Positions 1-3,527 of a DNA stretch of 5,530 nt are shown in pieces. A program made the position numbers and the translations under genes. How positions within the stretch are numbered: the stretch's first letter is position 1; each line of letters begins with the position of its first letter. Under the pieces are notes generated by a model. It was not told the origin of the DNA. It ran no database searches and saw nothing but the letters and a program-made list of their open reading frames with translations. The stretch is from a bacterium (GTDB taxonomy: Bacteria > Vulcanimicrobiota > Vulcanimicrobiia > Vulcanimicrobiales > SCRA01), in the NCBI GenBank assembly GCA_004298675.1, contig SCRI01000062.1, positions 1-5,530 of the forward strand. The letters are read 5' to 3'.

Positions 1-348
1 GGAGGTGGCGATCGGCACGTGGGTCCACTCACCGATCATCATGATCAGCCCTGCGCCGCTGACGAGCACGGCCAGTAAGAACCTGCGCCGCTCGGCATCG
101 AGCTCGCGCTCTTCCTCCTCAAAGGCACGAAGCTTGTCGGGATCGCGCACCGAGTAGCCCAGCGAGCGCAGCAGGCCGGTCACCTTGGCGTTGGTCGCCG
201 GCGAGCCGTCGTAGTCGATCAGAGCCTCTTCGTGAGCGAGGTTGACGGCCGCCCGCTCGACGCCGGGAAGCTGGCTGAGCGCCCGCTCGACGCTCTGCCG
301 GCAGAACGAACACTGCATGCCGCCGACGCCAAGTTGCAGTCTTGTCAT
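1..348 (-). CDS. copA: Heavy-metal (probably copper) P-type ATPase, N-terminal part
   Basis: This is the first 116 residues of a leftward gene cut by the window edge. Residues about 3-67 form a heavy-metal-associated (HMA) domain with GMQCSFC (Cys13 and Cys16), the CxxC pair that binds Cu(I) in this family, and it ends in LGYSV. A charged linker rich in Glu and Arg follows (about 69-89). A hydrophobic stretch, about residues 90-106, is probably the first membrane helix. This order is typical of P1B-type ATPases, which export metal ions across the inner membrane using ATP. The CPC/CPx motif and the catalytic DKTG lie outside the window, so Cu(I) over Zn/Cd is inferred from the CopZ-like neighbour. 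The ATG at 348 has no Shine-Dalgarno sequence. The predicted promoter lies so close that the mRNA is probably leaderless. The gene is divergent from the chaperone and MerR genes. Confidence 0.85.
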   Translation of the reverse strand, partial: MTRLQLGVGGMQCSFCRQSVERALSQLPGVERAAVNLAHEEALIDYDGSPATNAKVTGLLRSLGYSVRDPDKLRAFEEEERELDAERRRFLLAVLVSGAGLIMMIGEWTHVPIATS

Positions 349-354
349 GGCACG

Positions 355-386
355 ATGCTACACCCTGACCTCGAGGACAAGGTCAA
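355..386 (-). promoter_or_regulatory. MerR-type promoter and operator for the P-type ATPase
   Basis: Reading leftward, TTGACC (386-381) is the -35 and TAGCAT (360-355) the -10, separated by 20 bp instead of the usual 17. The spacer is occupied by a 22-bp dyad (362-383) with a CTCGAG centre, in which 9 of 11 base pairs match. Overlong spacers filled by a dyad are the hallmark of promoters that MerR-family activators untwist when they bind metal; 20 bp is also the ZntR-type spacing. The -10 ends 6 bp before the ATG, placing transcription start at or within a base or two of the start codon. The boxes are read directly from the sequence; control by the neighbouring MerR protein is inferred. Confidence 0.7.
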
Positions 387-401: not shown

Positions 402-432
402 TTGACCTTGCCCCGAGGGCCAGGTCTACACT
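402..432 (+). promoter_or_regulatory. MerR/CueR-type promoter and operator for the copZ-merR operon
   Basis: The -35 is TTGACC (402-407) and the -10 is TACACT (427-432), with a 19-bp spacer. A 21-bp dyad fills it (405-425): arms ACCTTGCCC and GGGCCAGGT around CGA, with 8 of 9 pairs matching. This agrees closely with the known layout of CueR and MerR promoters, where the activator bound to metal shortens the effective spacer. Transcription should start near 439, leaving a leader of about 43 nt before the chaperone ATG. The dyad shares its left arm (ACCTTG-CC) and CGAGG core with the leftward operator, so one regulator probably serves both. Confidence 0.8.
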
Positions 433-481: not shown

Positions 482-700
482 ATGACCAAAAGCCACCTGG
501 CAATCGAAGGCATGCATTGCGGAAACTGCGCGAACGCAATTCGCCAGGGCTTGCATACGCTCGACGGCGTGCTCGATGCCGATGTGCATCACGCCACGAA
601 TGATGCTGACGTGACCTTCGACGAGGCCAAGGTGAACGTCGCCAAGCTGCTAGAGACGCTCAAGGTTCTCGGCTACGAGGCGAAAGAGATCGCCGCATGA
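482..700 (+). CDS. copZ: CopZ-like heavy-metal chaperone (HMA domain)
   Basis: This 72-residue protein is a single HMA domain, the usual size of the copper chaperone CopZ. GMHCGNC (Cys13 and Cys16 with the preceding Met11) is the metal-binding loop near the N terminus, and LGYEAKEI near the C terminus matches the end of the ferredoxin-like fold. Such proteins carry Cu(I) in the cytosol and pass it to the HMA domains of the exporting ATPase, which here is encoded divergently, and sometimes to the regulator. The ATG at 482 is preferred over an in-frame GTG at 467 because AAGGA (470-474) sits about 7 bp before the ATG and the domain begins right after it. The gene overlaps the next one by four bases (ATGA), which suggests coupled translation. 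Specificity for Cu(I) over another soft metal is inferred. Confidence 0.9.
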   Translation: MTKSHLAIEGMHCGNCANAIRQGLHTLDGVLDADVHHATNDADVTFDEAKVNVAKLLETLKVLGYEAKEIAA

Positions 701-1215
701 TATACATCGGCGAGCTCGCGCGGCGCGTGGGGGCGACGCCCAAGGCGGTGCGATATTATGAGCGGCTGGGACTCCTCCGCTCCCGGCGCACGCCGTCCGG
801 CTACCGTGAGTTCGACGACCGGTCGGTGGAGATCGTGCGCGCGATCCGGCGCATGCAGTTCGTCGGCATCCCCATCAACGAGGTACGTGAGATTCTCGCG
901 TTGCTGGAAGAAGAAGCGCGGCCGTGCGAGCAGGTTCGACGTCTGCTGCGCGACCGGCGCGCTGATGTGGCGCAGCGCATTCGCGAGCTCAAGGCCTTCG
1001 ATCGCGTCCTCGCCGACCTGGAGTCCACCGCGCCGGGCGGCAGCGGCGGATGCGCCATTCTTGCGCGGGTCGATCCTAAGGCGAAAGGTTCCAACTCCGC
1101 GGGCACCGCGGCGCAGCACTCTTTGCAGCACGGCGCCAGAATAGGTATTCCAGAGCGCAAGCCGCTCGGGCAGCGACTGCCCAGGTTCGCAGACAAACAG
1201 CGTCAATCGAAGTGA
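697..1215 (+). CDS. MerR-family metal-responsive transcriptional regulator
   Basis: The 172-residue protein starts with the winged-helix DNA-binding domain of MerR regulators (about residues 1-70; AVRYYERLGLL at 17-27 and SGYREF at 34-39). A long dimerisation helix follows (about 78-110), then a metal loop. It aligns with E. coli CueR without gaps through residue 112. On that alignment CueR Ser77 is Cys77, as in the divalent-metal sensors MerR and ZntR. CueR Cys112 is Ala112, and the second loop Cys survives as Cys119, followed by AIL as in C-P-I/L-I. Metal identity is therefore uncertain. About 45 residues after position 125 extend past the usual end (CueR is 135 residues) and resemble no family tail I know. 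The start overlaps the chaperone stop (ATGA). The regulator probably controls its own operon promoter and the divergent ATPase promoter. Confidence 0.88.
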   Translation: MIYIGELARRVGATPKAVRYYERLGLLRSRRTPSGYREFDDRSVEIVRAIRRMQFVGIPINEVREILALLEEEARPCEQVRRLLRDRRADVAQRIRELKAFDRVLADLESTAPGGSGGCAILARVDPKAKGSNSAGTAAQHSLQHGARIGIPERKPLGQRLPRFADKQRQSK

Positions 1216-1223
1216 GCTAGGGG

Positions 1224-1627
1224 ATGACCCGAGACCGATCCGCGACCGTATTCGATCTCGCCGAGATGCGCTTGCGCGCTCGCCGGCGGCTCCCGCGCAT
1301 GGTGTTCGACTTCATCGACGGCGGTGCCGACGACGAACGAACGCTGCGTGAAAACGAAGCCGCTCTCGCTCGGCTCACGTTCGCTCCGCGGGCAATGACG
1401 AACGTTCGAGGGGTCAGCACCGGTCTCGAGCTTTTCGGTATACCCCTTTCGATGCTGCTCCTTCTCTCGCCGACCGGCCTGCCAGGACTGGCACATCCGA
1501 AGGCCGAGCTCGCGGCCGCGCGCGCAGCACGCGAGGTCGGGATCCTCTTCACAGCGAGTACGGTCTCGCGCTCGTCGGCGCGACGAACCTATGCGAGCTC
1601 TCGCCTGAATTGATCCGCCAGCCCTGA
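1224..1627 (+). pseudogene. FMN-dependent alpha-hydroxy-acid dehydrogenase, internally deleted remnant (LldD family)
   Basis: Codons from the ATG at 1224 encode the family N terminus: a VFDLAEMRLRARRRLPR helix, then FDFIDGGADDERTLREN, FAPRAM, LLLSPTGLPGLAHP and GILFTASTVS (about 115 residues). Family members are about 350-400 residues long and oxidise L-lactate or similar 2-hydroxy acids using FMN. After TASTVS the frame no longer matches and ends at 1613. In another frame, roughly from 1568, ALVGATNLCELSPELIRQP runs to a stop at 1627. This matches the family's C terminus (a G-T-x-x-ELSPELI type). An internal deletion of about 230 codons with a frame change best explains this. It removes the FMN-phosphate site and the catalytic His/Arg region, so no active enzyme is expected. 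SMLLLLSP, where SMPLLLSP is usual, also suggests decay. The ATG follows the merR stop by 8 bp, with AGGGG directly against it. Confidence 0.8.
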
Positions 1628-1628
1628 C

Positions 1629-1970
1629 TCTACCTATCGCTGGTCCGTCGACGTAACGGTGTACGTCGCGGAGTCGAGCCGCCGTACGGGGATTGCACGA
1701 ACGCTCTATGCCTCGCTCTCCCATCTCTTGGCGAAGCAGCGATACTACCGTGCGTACGCCGGTATCACGCTCCCGAATGAGGCGAGCGTGGCCCTGCACG
1801 GAGCCGTTGGTTTTGAGCCGGTTGGCGTCTACCGCGGTGTTGCGTTCAAGCTCGACCGTTGGTGCGACGTGTCTTGATGGCAGCGCTCACTGTGCGACGA
1901 CCCGGCTCCCGCGGGCGATCCTGGCGAACCGGCGAAGCTGTGCTCGATCAGCGGGGCGACGACGTCGTAG
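1629..1970 (+). pseudogene. GNAT acetyltransferase remnant, phosphinothricin/MddA type
   Basis: From about 1629 the frame reads STYRWSVDVTVYV, RRTGIARTLYASL, YYRAYAGITLPNEASVAL and VGFEPVGVYRGVAFKLDRW. This is the C-terminal half of the phosphinothricin-type GNAT acetyltransferases, which use acetyl-CoA to acetylate small amino compounds. RRTGIA is the acetyl-CoA pyrophosphate loop. The first 75 or so residues, including the usual N-terminal strand and helices, are missing, and a stop at 1611-1613 closes the frame upstream. A TGA at 1875-1877 interrupts DVS-stop-WQR exactly where the family has two Trp residues (DVGWWQ), consistent with a TGG-to-TGA change. The frame then stays open, with a Pro-rich tail like relatives, to a TAG at 1968-1970. 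A GTG at 1659 could start a 72-residue peptide, but it would lack half the fold. Probably non-functional. Confidence 0.8.
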
Positions 1971-2093: not shown

Positions 2094-2122
2094 TTGCCCT
2101 GGAGGGGCGTTTTGGGTATGCT
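2094..2122 (+). promoter_or_regulatory. Candidate sigma-70 promoter of the AbrB-Doc toxin-antitoxin operon
   Basis: TTGCCC (2094-2099) and TATGCT (2117-2122) each match the sigma-70 consensus boxes at 4 of 6 bases and are exactly 17 bp apart. Transcription would start near 2129, about 37 nt before the antitoxin GTG. The palindrome at 2141-2152 would lie just downstream of the start site, a suitable place for a repressor. Confidence 0.45.
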
Positions 2123-2140
2123 ATCTCTCAGTGTACTAAC

Positions 2141-2152
2141 GTTCGTACGAAC
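2141..2152. promoter_or_regulatory. Perfect 12-bp palindrome, candidate antitoxin operator
   Basis: GTTCGTACGAAC is a perfect palindrome 13 bp before the antitoxin start codon. A partial second site, AGTGTACT (2130-2137), with the same central GTAC lies just upstream. AbrB/MazE-type antitoxins commonly bind such palindromes to repress their own operon, alone or with the toxin. Binding here is inferred from position and symmetry only. Confidence 0.5.
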
Positions 2153-2165
2153 TGACGAGGGGCTC

Positions 2166-2390
2166 GTGACGACCATCAAGCTGACCCGTGTGGGAAATTC
2201 GGTTGGAGCGATCCTGCCGAAGGAGGTTTTGGCGCGCCTCCATGCCGGCGCCGGTGATACACTGTACCTCACGGAATCCCCCGACGGCTATCGGATCACG
2301 CCCTACGATCCGGAGTTTGCCGCGCAAGCCGCGGCTGCAGAGAAGATCATGAAGCGTCGCCGGGCCGTCTTGCGTGAGCTCGCGCGATAG
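2166..2390 (+). CDS. AbrB/MazE-like antitoxin of a Doc-type toxin-antitoxin pair
   Basis: The protein is 74 residues starting at a GTG. Residues about 3-46 form the swapped-hairpin SpoVT-AbrB DNA-binding domain: IKLTRVGNSVGAILPKEVLA, then AGAGDTLYLTESPDGYRITP. The charged tail (FAAQAAAAEKIMKRRRAVLR, about 51-70) would be the toxin-binding segment. Antitoxins of this design neutralise the toxin encoded next to them and repress the operon. GAGGGG (2157-2162) is the likely ribosome site, rather close to the GTG. The GTG is chosen because the domain starts immediately after it, and longer frames upstream add sequence unlike the family. The gene overlaps the toxin start by 17 bp. This arrangement (AbrB-type antitoxin with Doc) is common, in contrast to the Phd-Doc pair of phage P1. 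Function is inferred from family and context. Confidence 0.88.
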   Translation: MTTIKLTRVGNSVGAILPKEVLARLHAGAGDTLYLTESPDGYRITPYDPEFAAQAAAAEKIMKRRRAVLRELAR

Positions 2391-2775
2391 TCATCGCTGG
2401 CTCCGGCATGATGTCGTTCTCGCCGTCCATGAGGCTCAGATCGCCGAGCACGGCGGCTCGACCGGCGTGCGGGATCCGGGGCTCCTGGAATCCGCTCTAG
2501 CCAGGGCCAAACACGCGGCTTCGTATACCGACGCCAGTGTTCTGGCGCTTGCGGCGCTCTACGCGCTCGGTATCATTCGCAATCATCCGTTCGTGGATGG
2601 CAACAAGCGCACGGGGTTCGTGCTCTTGGAGCTTTTCCTCGATCTCAACGGGTACGAGCTCGATGCATCGGATAGCGACTGTTACGCGACGATCGTATCC
2701 GTGGCATCGGGAGCCATGAGCGACGACGAATTCACGGTGTGGGTGACAAGCCATGCGATTCTTCGCACGACGTAA
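2374..2775 (+). CDS. doc: Doc-family toxin (Fic fold), death on curing
   Basis: This 133-residue protein is full length for Doc. It shows the order typical of the family: a WLRHDVVLAVHEAQIAEHGG N-terminal helix, GVRDPGLLESALARA (31-45), then the Fic/Doc motif HPFVDGNKR (71-79) and LNGYELDAS (91-99). In phage P1, Doc transfers phosphate from ATP to elongation factor EF-Tu and so stops translation. The His and the GNKR residues needed for that are all present, so the toxin looks active. The GTG start at 2374 lies inside the antitoxin gene (17-bp overlap), which makes toxin synthesis depend on antitoxin translation. It is preferred because the conserved Trp near the N terminus follows 8 residues later. 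Stop is TAA at 2773. No frameshift or missing residue is visible. Confidence 0.92.
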   Translation: MSSRDSHRWLRHDVVLAVHEAQIAEHGGSTGVRDPGLLESALARAKHAASYTDASVLALAALYALGIIRNHPFVDGNKRTGFVLLELFLDLNGYELDASDSDCYATIVSVASGAMSDDEFTVWVTSHAILRTT

Positions 2776-2925: not shown

Positions 2926-3181
2926 ATGCCAAAGAAACGGACCGATGCTGACCTGACAATTCATGTCGGCGAGCACCGTAGCTTGGAGTGGTACTGGGCA
3001 GCTAATGGGACGATGCCAGGCCTGGAGCGGTCCCCGCGGGCGGAAGGCCGTTGGAGACGCGGATCAACGGAAACGCGATAAGACCGGCGACCGCGTGGTG
3101 AGGAGAACGACATTCGCGGTTGCGGATTACTTCAAGAGAGTCGGTGAGGGACGATACTATGAACGCCGCCGAGGCACGTAA
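2926..3181 (+). pseudogene. RelE/HigB-like toxin remnant with internal deletion and frameshift
   Basis: The ATG at 2926 has a good ribosome site (GGAGAG, 2913-2918) and reads MPKKRTDADLTIHV, then EWYWAANGTMPGLE. This resembles the N terminus of a group of RelE/HigB-type toxins encoded before helix-turn-helix antitoxins. After GLE (3027) the frame becomes Arg-rich and stops at 3081. In another frame QRKRDKTGDRVVRR, then VADYFKRVGEGRYYERRRGT (from about 3065 to TAA at 3179) looks like the C-terminal helix of the same toxin family. It overlaps the antitoxin start by 23 bp, as intact pairs do. The middle, about 60 codons that normally hold the beta-sheet and the RNase residues, is missing. Intact relatives are mRNA-cutting enzymes; this one should be dead. 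The family call is from memory of its sequence pattern and is moderate. Confidence 0.5.
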
Positions 3182-3527
3182 GAGGAGAAGTGGAGGCACG
3201 CTCGCCGAGCGGACCCGGAAAGATTCGGCCCGTGCGGCCCGCATCGATCGCCTTGTTGCAGAGGCCTCCATTGAGAACGCTTTGCGGAAGATCATGGAGA
3301 TCGAAGACGTAAGCGCCGCCGAGCTTGCTCGCCGCATCCATGCTAAACCTCCACAGATCTCGCGAGATCTTCGTGGGGGCCTCAGCAAAGCTCGCGTCTA
3401 CCGCCTCGTCGAACTGGGACGGGCCCTTGGGTACGATTTCGTTCCGATGTTCGTTCCACAAGACAAAGAAAAGCGACGGACCATGATTGCGTGGTATACG
3501 AAAATGCTCGCTGGAGGACGTTCCTGA
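3159..3527 (+). CDS. Helix-turn-helix (XRE/HigA-like) antitoxin, probably orphaned
   Basis: The protein is 122 residues. A basic, Ala/Arg-rich N-terminal arm (1-34) is followed by a helix-turn-helix domain (about 50-88): VSAAELARRIHAKPPQISRDLRGGLSKARV, where QISRDLRG is the recognition-helix region. LGRALGYDFVPMFVP (86-100) is the hydrophobic closing segment common in HigA-type antitoxins. Such proteins bind the operon operator and neutralise a RelE/HigB toxin encoded just upstream. Here that toxin looks broken, so the protein would act only as a DNA-binding repressor, perhaps at the TTAACTT repeats. The ATG at 3159 has GAGGGA (3146-3151) at ideal spacing; an in-frame GTG at 3120 lacks this. 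The 97 bp after the stop hold no gene I can support. Confidence 0.78.
   Translation: MNAAEARKRRSGGTLAERTRKDSARAARIDRLVAEASIENALRKIMEIEDVSAAELARRIHAKPPQISRDLRGGLSKARVYRLVELGRALGYDFVPMFVPQDKEKRRTMIAWYTKMLAGGRS

Follow-up and report, generated by a model that had tools for sequence, protein, structure and literature searches.

Gene organization of the locus

The window, i.e., the whole stretch of 5,530 nucleotides analyzed here, makes up one short contig, C48, in full; the genome comprises 3.03 Mb. It encodes a MerR-family metal sensor, a small metallochaperone located directly upstream and the N-terminus of a divergently oriented P1B-type ATPase (Table 1).

The longest open reading frame of the chaperone starts with a GTG at position 467, the ATG at 482 being the likelier start. 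Its end overlaps with merR by 4 bp (697–700), which suggests that both genes are probably translationally coupled. An operon with a copper-type chaperone had been proposed in the initial annotation. The overlap supports the operon; the term copper-type is, however, too specific, since among the NCBIfam models a metal-binding (seleno)protein family ranked first and CopZ and MerTP came next, none of them reaching the cut-off.

Table 1. Features of the window with their positions (P1B, ATPase type; HTH, helix-turn-helix).
Feature	Position	Strand	Evidence or remark
P1B-type ATPase, N-terminus (HMA domain with GMQCSFC, and linker)	1..348	-	cut by contig end; 79% identity to FW021 orthologue
Predicted divergent promoter of the ATPase, TTGACC - 20 bp - TAGCAT	355..386	-	dyad ACCTTGTCCTCGAGGTCAGGGT at 362-383
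Predicted promoter of the chaperone-merR operon, TTGACC - 19 bp - TACACT	402..432	+	23-bp dyad GACCTTGCCCCGAGGGCCAGGTC at 404-426
HMA-domain metallochaperone, GMHCGNC motif	482..700	+	Pfam HMA 1.1e-16
MerR-family metal sensor, 172 aa	697..1215	+	Pfam, PDB homologues, model, structural alignment to CadR/CueR/MerR
Parts of the sensor (residues): HTH 1-70; dimerization helix 77-110; metal loop 111-119; short helix 120-125; tail 126-172			tail unconserved and disordered
Cys77 codon TGC	925..927	+	opens the dimerization helix; kept by all clade members
Ala112 codon GCG	1030..1032	+	metal-ligand Cys in CueR/CadR
Cys119 codon TGC	1051..1053	+	closes the metal loop; conserved [AP]IL comes next; kept by all clade members
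FMN-dependent (lactate-type) dehydrogenase, N-terminal fragment	1224..1613	+	apparent remnant just 3' of merR
GNAT acetyltransferase, C-terminal fragment	1659..1877	+	apparent gene remnant downstream of merR
MazE/AbrB-type antitoxin, then overlapping Fic/Doc-family gene	about 2110..2775	+	likely toxin-antitoxin pair
HTH_37/Xre-type regulator	3120..3527	+	Pfam match is weak; may be an antitoxin whose upstream partner is degraded

The metal site of the regulator

The window MerR matched the Pfam families MerR_1 (8e-15) and MerR-DNA-bind (1.6e-12) as well as the MerR model, and it displays the N-terminal MerR winged-helix HTH and the long dimerization helix of this superfamily. In an HMMER alignment with CueR from E. 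coli, Cys77 is positioned opposite Ser77 and Ala112 opposite Cys112, and the codons TGC, GCG and TGC confirm the residues Cys77, Ala112 and Cys119 named in the initial annotation. This alignment had been described as free of gaps; the numbering indeed coincides after about residue 27, but an N-terminal offset of one residue exists, which is cancelled by a one-residue gap near this position.

Metal selectivity within the MerR family is usually explained by residue 77 together with two loop cysteines. Here, the window MerR differs from CueR, which carries Ser77 and the loop cysteines Cys112 and Cys120, and against the NCBIfam model for CueR (TIGR02044) it reached 77.5 bits at a cut-off of 147.4. 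The cysteine at position 77 of the divalent sensors (MerR, ZntR, CadR-PbrR) is present and invariant across the clade of the window MerR, whereas their loop-ligand cysteine at position 112 is an alanine in the window MerR and absent in 6/6 clade members. With the NCBIfam equivalog models of the divalent MerR sensors, scores below the cut-offs were obtained. Broadly, metal-sensing MerR proteins are expected to contain two or all three of the metal cysteines (PMC1526738), and Cys77 and Cys119 are two of these. Cys77 marks sensors of +2 metals (PMC9909328) and places the protein in the divalent or soft-metal sensor group, in support of the initial annotation, where this cysteine was read as a mark of divalent-metal sensors.

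Read from the sequence, Cys77 and Cys119 are the only cysteines of the protein. A loop misalignment concealing a second loop cysteine was therefore rejected.

An AlphaFold2 single-chain model built from a six-sequence alignment has a mean pLDDT of 72, with values of 81–95 for residues 1–70, 66 for residues 71–80 and 53–58 for residues 111–130. In this model, a helix (77–110) is followed by a loop (111–119) and a further helix (120–125), with residue 77 opening the dimerization helix and Cys119 closing the loop; the distance between Cys77' and Cys119 lies beyond the reach of a single chain. Comparison with the structures of CadR, CueR, PbrR691 and MerR resulted in Z-scores of 11–13 with tied top rows, the best value being that of CadR, tied with CueR. 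The residues equivalent to Cys77 and Cys119 bind one shared ion across the dimer in both CadR and MerR (PMC9909328; PMC5027573). A corresponding cross-dimer site had been suggested for the window MerR, and the suggestion gains support, as both cysteines are clade-invariant and form the sole thiol pair that could coordinate a metal. A second suggestion, a ligand provided by the long His-containing tail, was not supported. Past residue 126, length and sequence differ between the clade members and the predicted structure is disordered (pLDDT <50), which makes the tail an unlikely source of ligands, and its histidines were rejected as such.

Conservation within the clade

A search of 149 genomes of the phylum revealed a clade of six members in four genomes. 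These are the window MerR, a paralogue on contig C51 (61%), one protein each in the genomes G031 (72%) and G029 (59%; identical in sequence to the public record SCRA01000005.1, FW021_bin.48) and two copies in G110. Cys77, within a P-C motif, and Cys119, within C-[AP]-I-L, are kept in 6/6 members and Cys112 in 0/6, where A, P, S, V, A and D are found instead. Since all six share the same cysteine pattern, the loss of Cys112 is, judged from these sequences, a genuine inherited trait of the lineage. A sequencing error at residue 112 was rejected, as the cysteine is missing there in six sequences. Such an error, or homologues revealing a shifted loop alignment and a second cysteine pair, had been named in the initial annotation as an outcome that would overturn its view; neither occurred, and the clade has no second loop cysteine.

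The closest clade pairs show a dN/dS of about 0.2 over residues 1–125 (dN 0.13 and dS 0.61 for the closest pair), and the codons of both cysteines vary synonymously between TGC and TGT within the clade. This indicates selection on the protein, and the core of the window MerR is under purifying selection. A degenerating sensor copy with a broken metal site would fit to the missing canonical ligand and to the gene fragments at 1224–1613 and 1659–1877. This explanation is, however, very improbable, given that six sequences in four genomes share the pattern, that dN/dS is about 0.2 and that operators and operon are conserved. A pseudogene was rejected on the dN/dS value and on the conserved operators and operon.

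In a tree of 43 rows, the clade is supported by 98/95 and is placed outside the groups holding CueR and the Tn501 MerR. It falls into the half that contains CadR and the actinobacterial and Deinococcus sensors, the deeper grouping being weak.

Predicted promoters and operators

Two promoters of the MerR type, defined by a 19–20 bp spacer with a dyad as typical for this superfamily, are present in the window vs. 0.003 expected in shuffled sequence. Both occupy the intergenic region that separates the divergent ATPase gene from the chaperone-merR operon, and they contain ACCTT-type dyads. Related sites were detected ahead of genes in the loci L002, L003, L006 and L007 (in the latter on both strands) and within L005. 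The half-sites of CueR are ACCTTCCC (PMC1526738), which the ACCTT half-sites of the window resemble. Together with the metal-site residues, which are not those of CueR, this suggests that the DNA-reading end of the protein is CueR-like and the metal end is not. We infer that the window MerR acts on the two predicted operators.

On the - strand, the ATPase promoter has its -10 box at 360–355, just short of the ATG at 348, and this proximity suggests a leaderless ATPase transcript.

Comparison with known metal sensors

CadR, the Cd(II) sensor of P. putida, is similar to the window MerR in fold, Cys77 and the loop 112–119 (Cys112/Cys119 in CadR; PMC9909328). PbrR, the Pb(II) sensor of C. metallidurans, shares the fold and Cys77, whereas its tail ligand C134 is unmatched in the window MerR. 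Both have MerR-type promoters as found in the window, and both possess the Cys112 equivalent that the window MerR lacks. For PbrR, the mutants C14S, C79S and C134S were shown to be defective in the Pb(II) response; C79 is thus essential, and C114, the equivalent of position 112, is not among the residues needed (PMC3431237). This suggests that a cysteine at position 112 is not universally required. The loop cysteine of PbrR equivalent to Cys119 is dispensable too (PMC3431237).

Of the Hg(II) sensor MerR (Tn501/Gram-positive), the equivalents of the cross-dimer Cys82'/79' and of the loop-end Cys126/123 are present in the window MerR. In contrast, the third ligand Cys117/114 is missing, the window locus has no merTPA and the operator half-sites differ. 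CueR, the Cu(I) sensor of E. coli, is alike in fold, 19-bp spacer, ACCTT half-sites and the adjoining chaperone and P1B-ATPase, but the window MerR has Cys for Ser77, Ala for Cys112, a loop shorter by one residue and belongs to a separate clade.

Sensors without Cys112 are found in further lineages. Actinobacterial MerRs annotated as heavy metal-responsive (L038, Tsukamurella; L040, Rhodococcus) have Cys77, a single loop-end cysteine (GVCWIL) and no Cys112, as observed for the window MerR. They differ by a longer loop, by other neighbors (a CPC-type ATPase, or ArsR plus an ATPase) and by an identity of only about 38–41%. Within the same phylum, a merR-merTP-merA operon (L022) encodes a MerR with C77 and a loop-end CGC and without C112. 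The MerRs of Dietzia (beside merA), Deinococcus (with merB) and Mycobacterium intracellulare also lack C112 and contain a later cysteine pair.

The linked ATPase and the copper genes of the genome

Contig C23 carries at its edge a C-terminal ATPase piece (87% identity), which is followed by an MFS gene matching that of FW021. This piece and the ATPase of the window were kept separate, and the pump class was judged by orthology, the pump of the window being cut. The FW021 orthologue (L007) has YPC as the motif of the sixth transmembrane helix (TM6). Together with its relatives in L002 and L006 it displays YPC in TM6, FN in TM7 and M..SV in TM8, and therefore none of the three has the CPC (TM6), YN (TM7) and MxxSS (TM8) of P1B-1 copper ATPases. 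In the same search, all remaining P1B pumps read from the order were of the CPC type. A clade MerR was present at 3/3 YPC loci with readable flanks vs. 0/26 loci of other P1B pumps in the order (one-sided Fisher 2.7e-4, uncorrected for relatedness).

Elsewhere in the same genome, a CsoR gene is located immediately upstream of a CPC-type CopA. Copper export thus appears to be regulated separately, and the window system is probably not the main copper system of the genome. The copper operon implied by the initial annotation loses ground from this pair and from the YPC-type pumps of the clade, and a copper operon by default is weakened.

Nevertheless, the window MerR could be a sensor of the copper group (Cu(I)/Ag(I)/Au(I)), in which a digonal Cys77'-Cys119 site replaces Cys112-Cys120 and a copper chaperone and a divergent copper exporter are controlled. 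The CueR-like ACCTT half-sites with the 19-bp spacer, the CxxC of the HMA chaperone, the suitability of Cu(I) for a linear bis-thiolate and the SCO1-like genes of the contig into which the ATPase probably continues fit to this. This contig also encodes ArsR and a weakly MerT-like protein. The reading is appreciable but unlikely, since Cys77 is typical of +2 sensors (PMC9909328), the CsoR of the genome adjoins the CPC-type CopA, the linked pump class has no CPC/YN/MxxSS copper motifs and CueR is found outside the group formed by the clade in the tree. Furthermore, an S77C variant of CueR responds to divalent ions as well, as far as this work is cited in PMC11591864.

Proposed mechanism and sensed metal

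The most likely explanation, held at a probability of roughly 0.55, is a variant MerR-type switch for a soft d10 metal, most likely Hg(II), bound at a two-coordinate cross-dimer site of Cys77' and Cys119. Here, a dimer of the window MerR would sit on the dyads inside the over-long promoters (19 and 20 bp). The metal would be held by Cys119 at the loop end of one protomer and by Cys77' at the start of the dimerization helix of the other, and this dimer-bridging site would lock the activating dimer geometry without Cys112. Metal binding would then untwist the spacer, so that RNA polymerase starts both transcripts, yielding chaperone, sensor and efflux pump. Such a site would suit ions that form linear bis-thiolates, Hg(II) first and Cu(I)/Ag(I)/Au(I) next, and would be poor for Zn(II), Cd(II) and Pb(II), which would be short of ligands unless the clade-invariant Glu109 joins.

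With such additional non-thiol ligands (Glu109, water, backbone) next to Cys77' and Cys119, a three- or four-coordinate sensor of the Zn/Cd/Pb type is conceivable. Cys77, the CadR-like 112–119 spacing and the Z-score of CadR, the best although tied with CueR, would agree with it, as would Glu109, which is invariant in 6/6 members and precedes residue 112 by one helical turn. This is nonetheless improbable: a conserved His and a third Cys are absent, acidic loop residues are not conserved in the clade and are absent from the loop of the window MerR, and the linked pumps lack the P1B-2 motifs, Lys in TM7 and Asp in TM8 (motifs according to PMC4932525).

The sensed metal would be Hg(II) with a chance of roughly one half and a member of the copper group, Cu(I)/Ag(I)/Au(I), with a chance of a quarter. 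A metal other than copper, as considered in the initial annotation, is plausible. Hg(II) is favored by Cys77, by the mer neighbors and by the linear dithiolate geometry, which is predominant for this ion (PMC5027573). The C112-lacking MerRs in mer loci (L022, Dietzia merA, Deinococcus merB) support the proposed switch, as do YPC pump-MFS modules near merT/merP (Nitrobacter, Afipia) and merA (haloarchaea).

Several observations argue against it. No mer operon linked to the window locus was seen in the genome, the ACCTT half-site is CueR-like, the Cys119 equivalent of PbrR is dispensable and copper genes occur near some YPC loci. The C112-lacking MerRs of mer loci carry a second, late loop cysteine that the clade lacks, and the contig that probably holds the rest of the ATPase has SCO1-like genes, which point to copper. 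In MerR, the affinity for Hg(II) drops dramatically upon mutation of each single one of the three cysteines (PMC5027573), and a two-cysteine site could therefore be weak.

YPC pumps in other lineages

Plasmid-borne relatives of the YPC pump with 45–52% identity are present in Deinococcus, Proteobacteria and haloarchaea. P1B-ATPases with YPC/FN/M..SV (L007:1348–3615, - strand; L048; L049; L076–L084) are often located near MFS, CcdA, thioredoxin and mer genes. In Afipia and Nitrobacter, an operon comprises HMA, YPC pump, MFS, MerR, thioredoxin, CcdA, MerT and MerP, the gene at the MerP position in Nitrobacter being annotated merely as a cation transporter. Of four haloarchaeal loci read, three have merA no more than about 2 kb away from the YPC pump. 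Copper genes are also nearby in the YPC loci of Cupriavidus and Thalassobaculum. The MerRs of proteobacterial YPC loci have the full set of C77, C112 and C119, and that of Deinococcus lacks C112.

In the open literature searched, no description of a YPC motif in P1B-ATPases was found, which does not prove its absence; the subfamily is apparently uncharacterized and may be a more novel partner than the sensor itself. Tentatively, and as a possibility rather than a probability, the clade could represent a lineage-specific MerR class in which the three-thiolate site has become a minimal cross-dimer two-thiolate site, and which together with the YPC pump serves the efflux of a soft metal, probably mercury, as a system separate from CopA/CueR, ZntA/ZntR and mer. 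A natural and conserved clade minus one loop cysteine offers a ready test of the minimum ligands for allosteric activation and of whether a purely cross-dimer site is sufficient for it. Since YPC pumps range from this phylum to Proteobacteria and haloarchaea, often near mer genes, the sensor could also reveal their cargo.

Two further observations concern neighboring and related genes. In two genomes, an ArsR/CmtR-like regulator followed by a small membrane protein with a CC motif (L107:4899–5536, where it is weakly MerT-like; L109:116–759) is encoded at a distance of a few kb from the genes for YPC pump and MFS. In addition, the genome of the window encodes another P1B-type ATPase (L092; G000:C82:7496–9358, - strand), in which CPD in TM6 (IACPDALALATP) replaces CPC.
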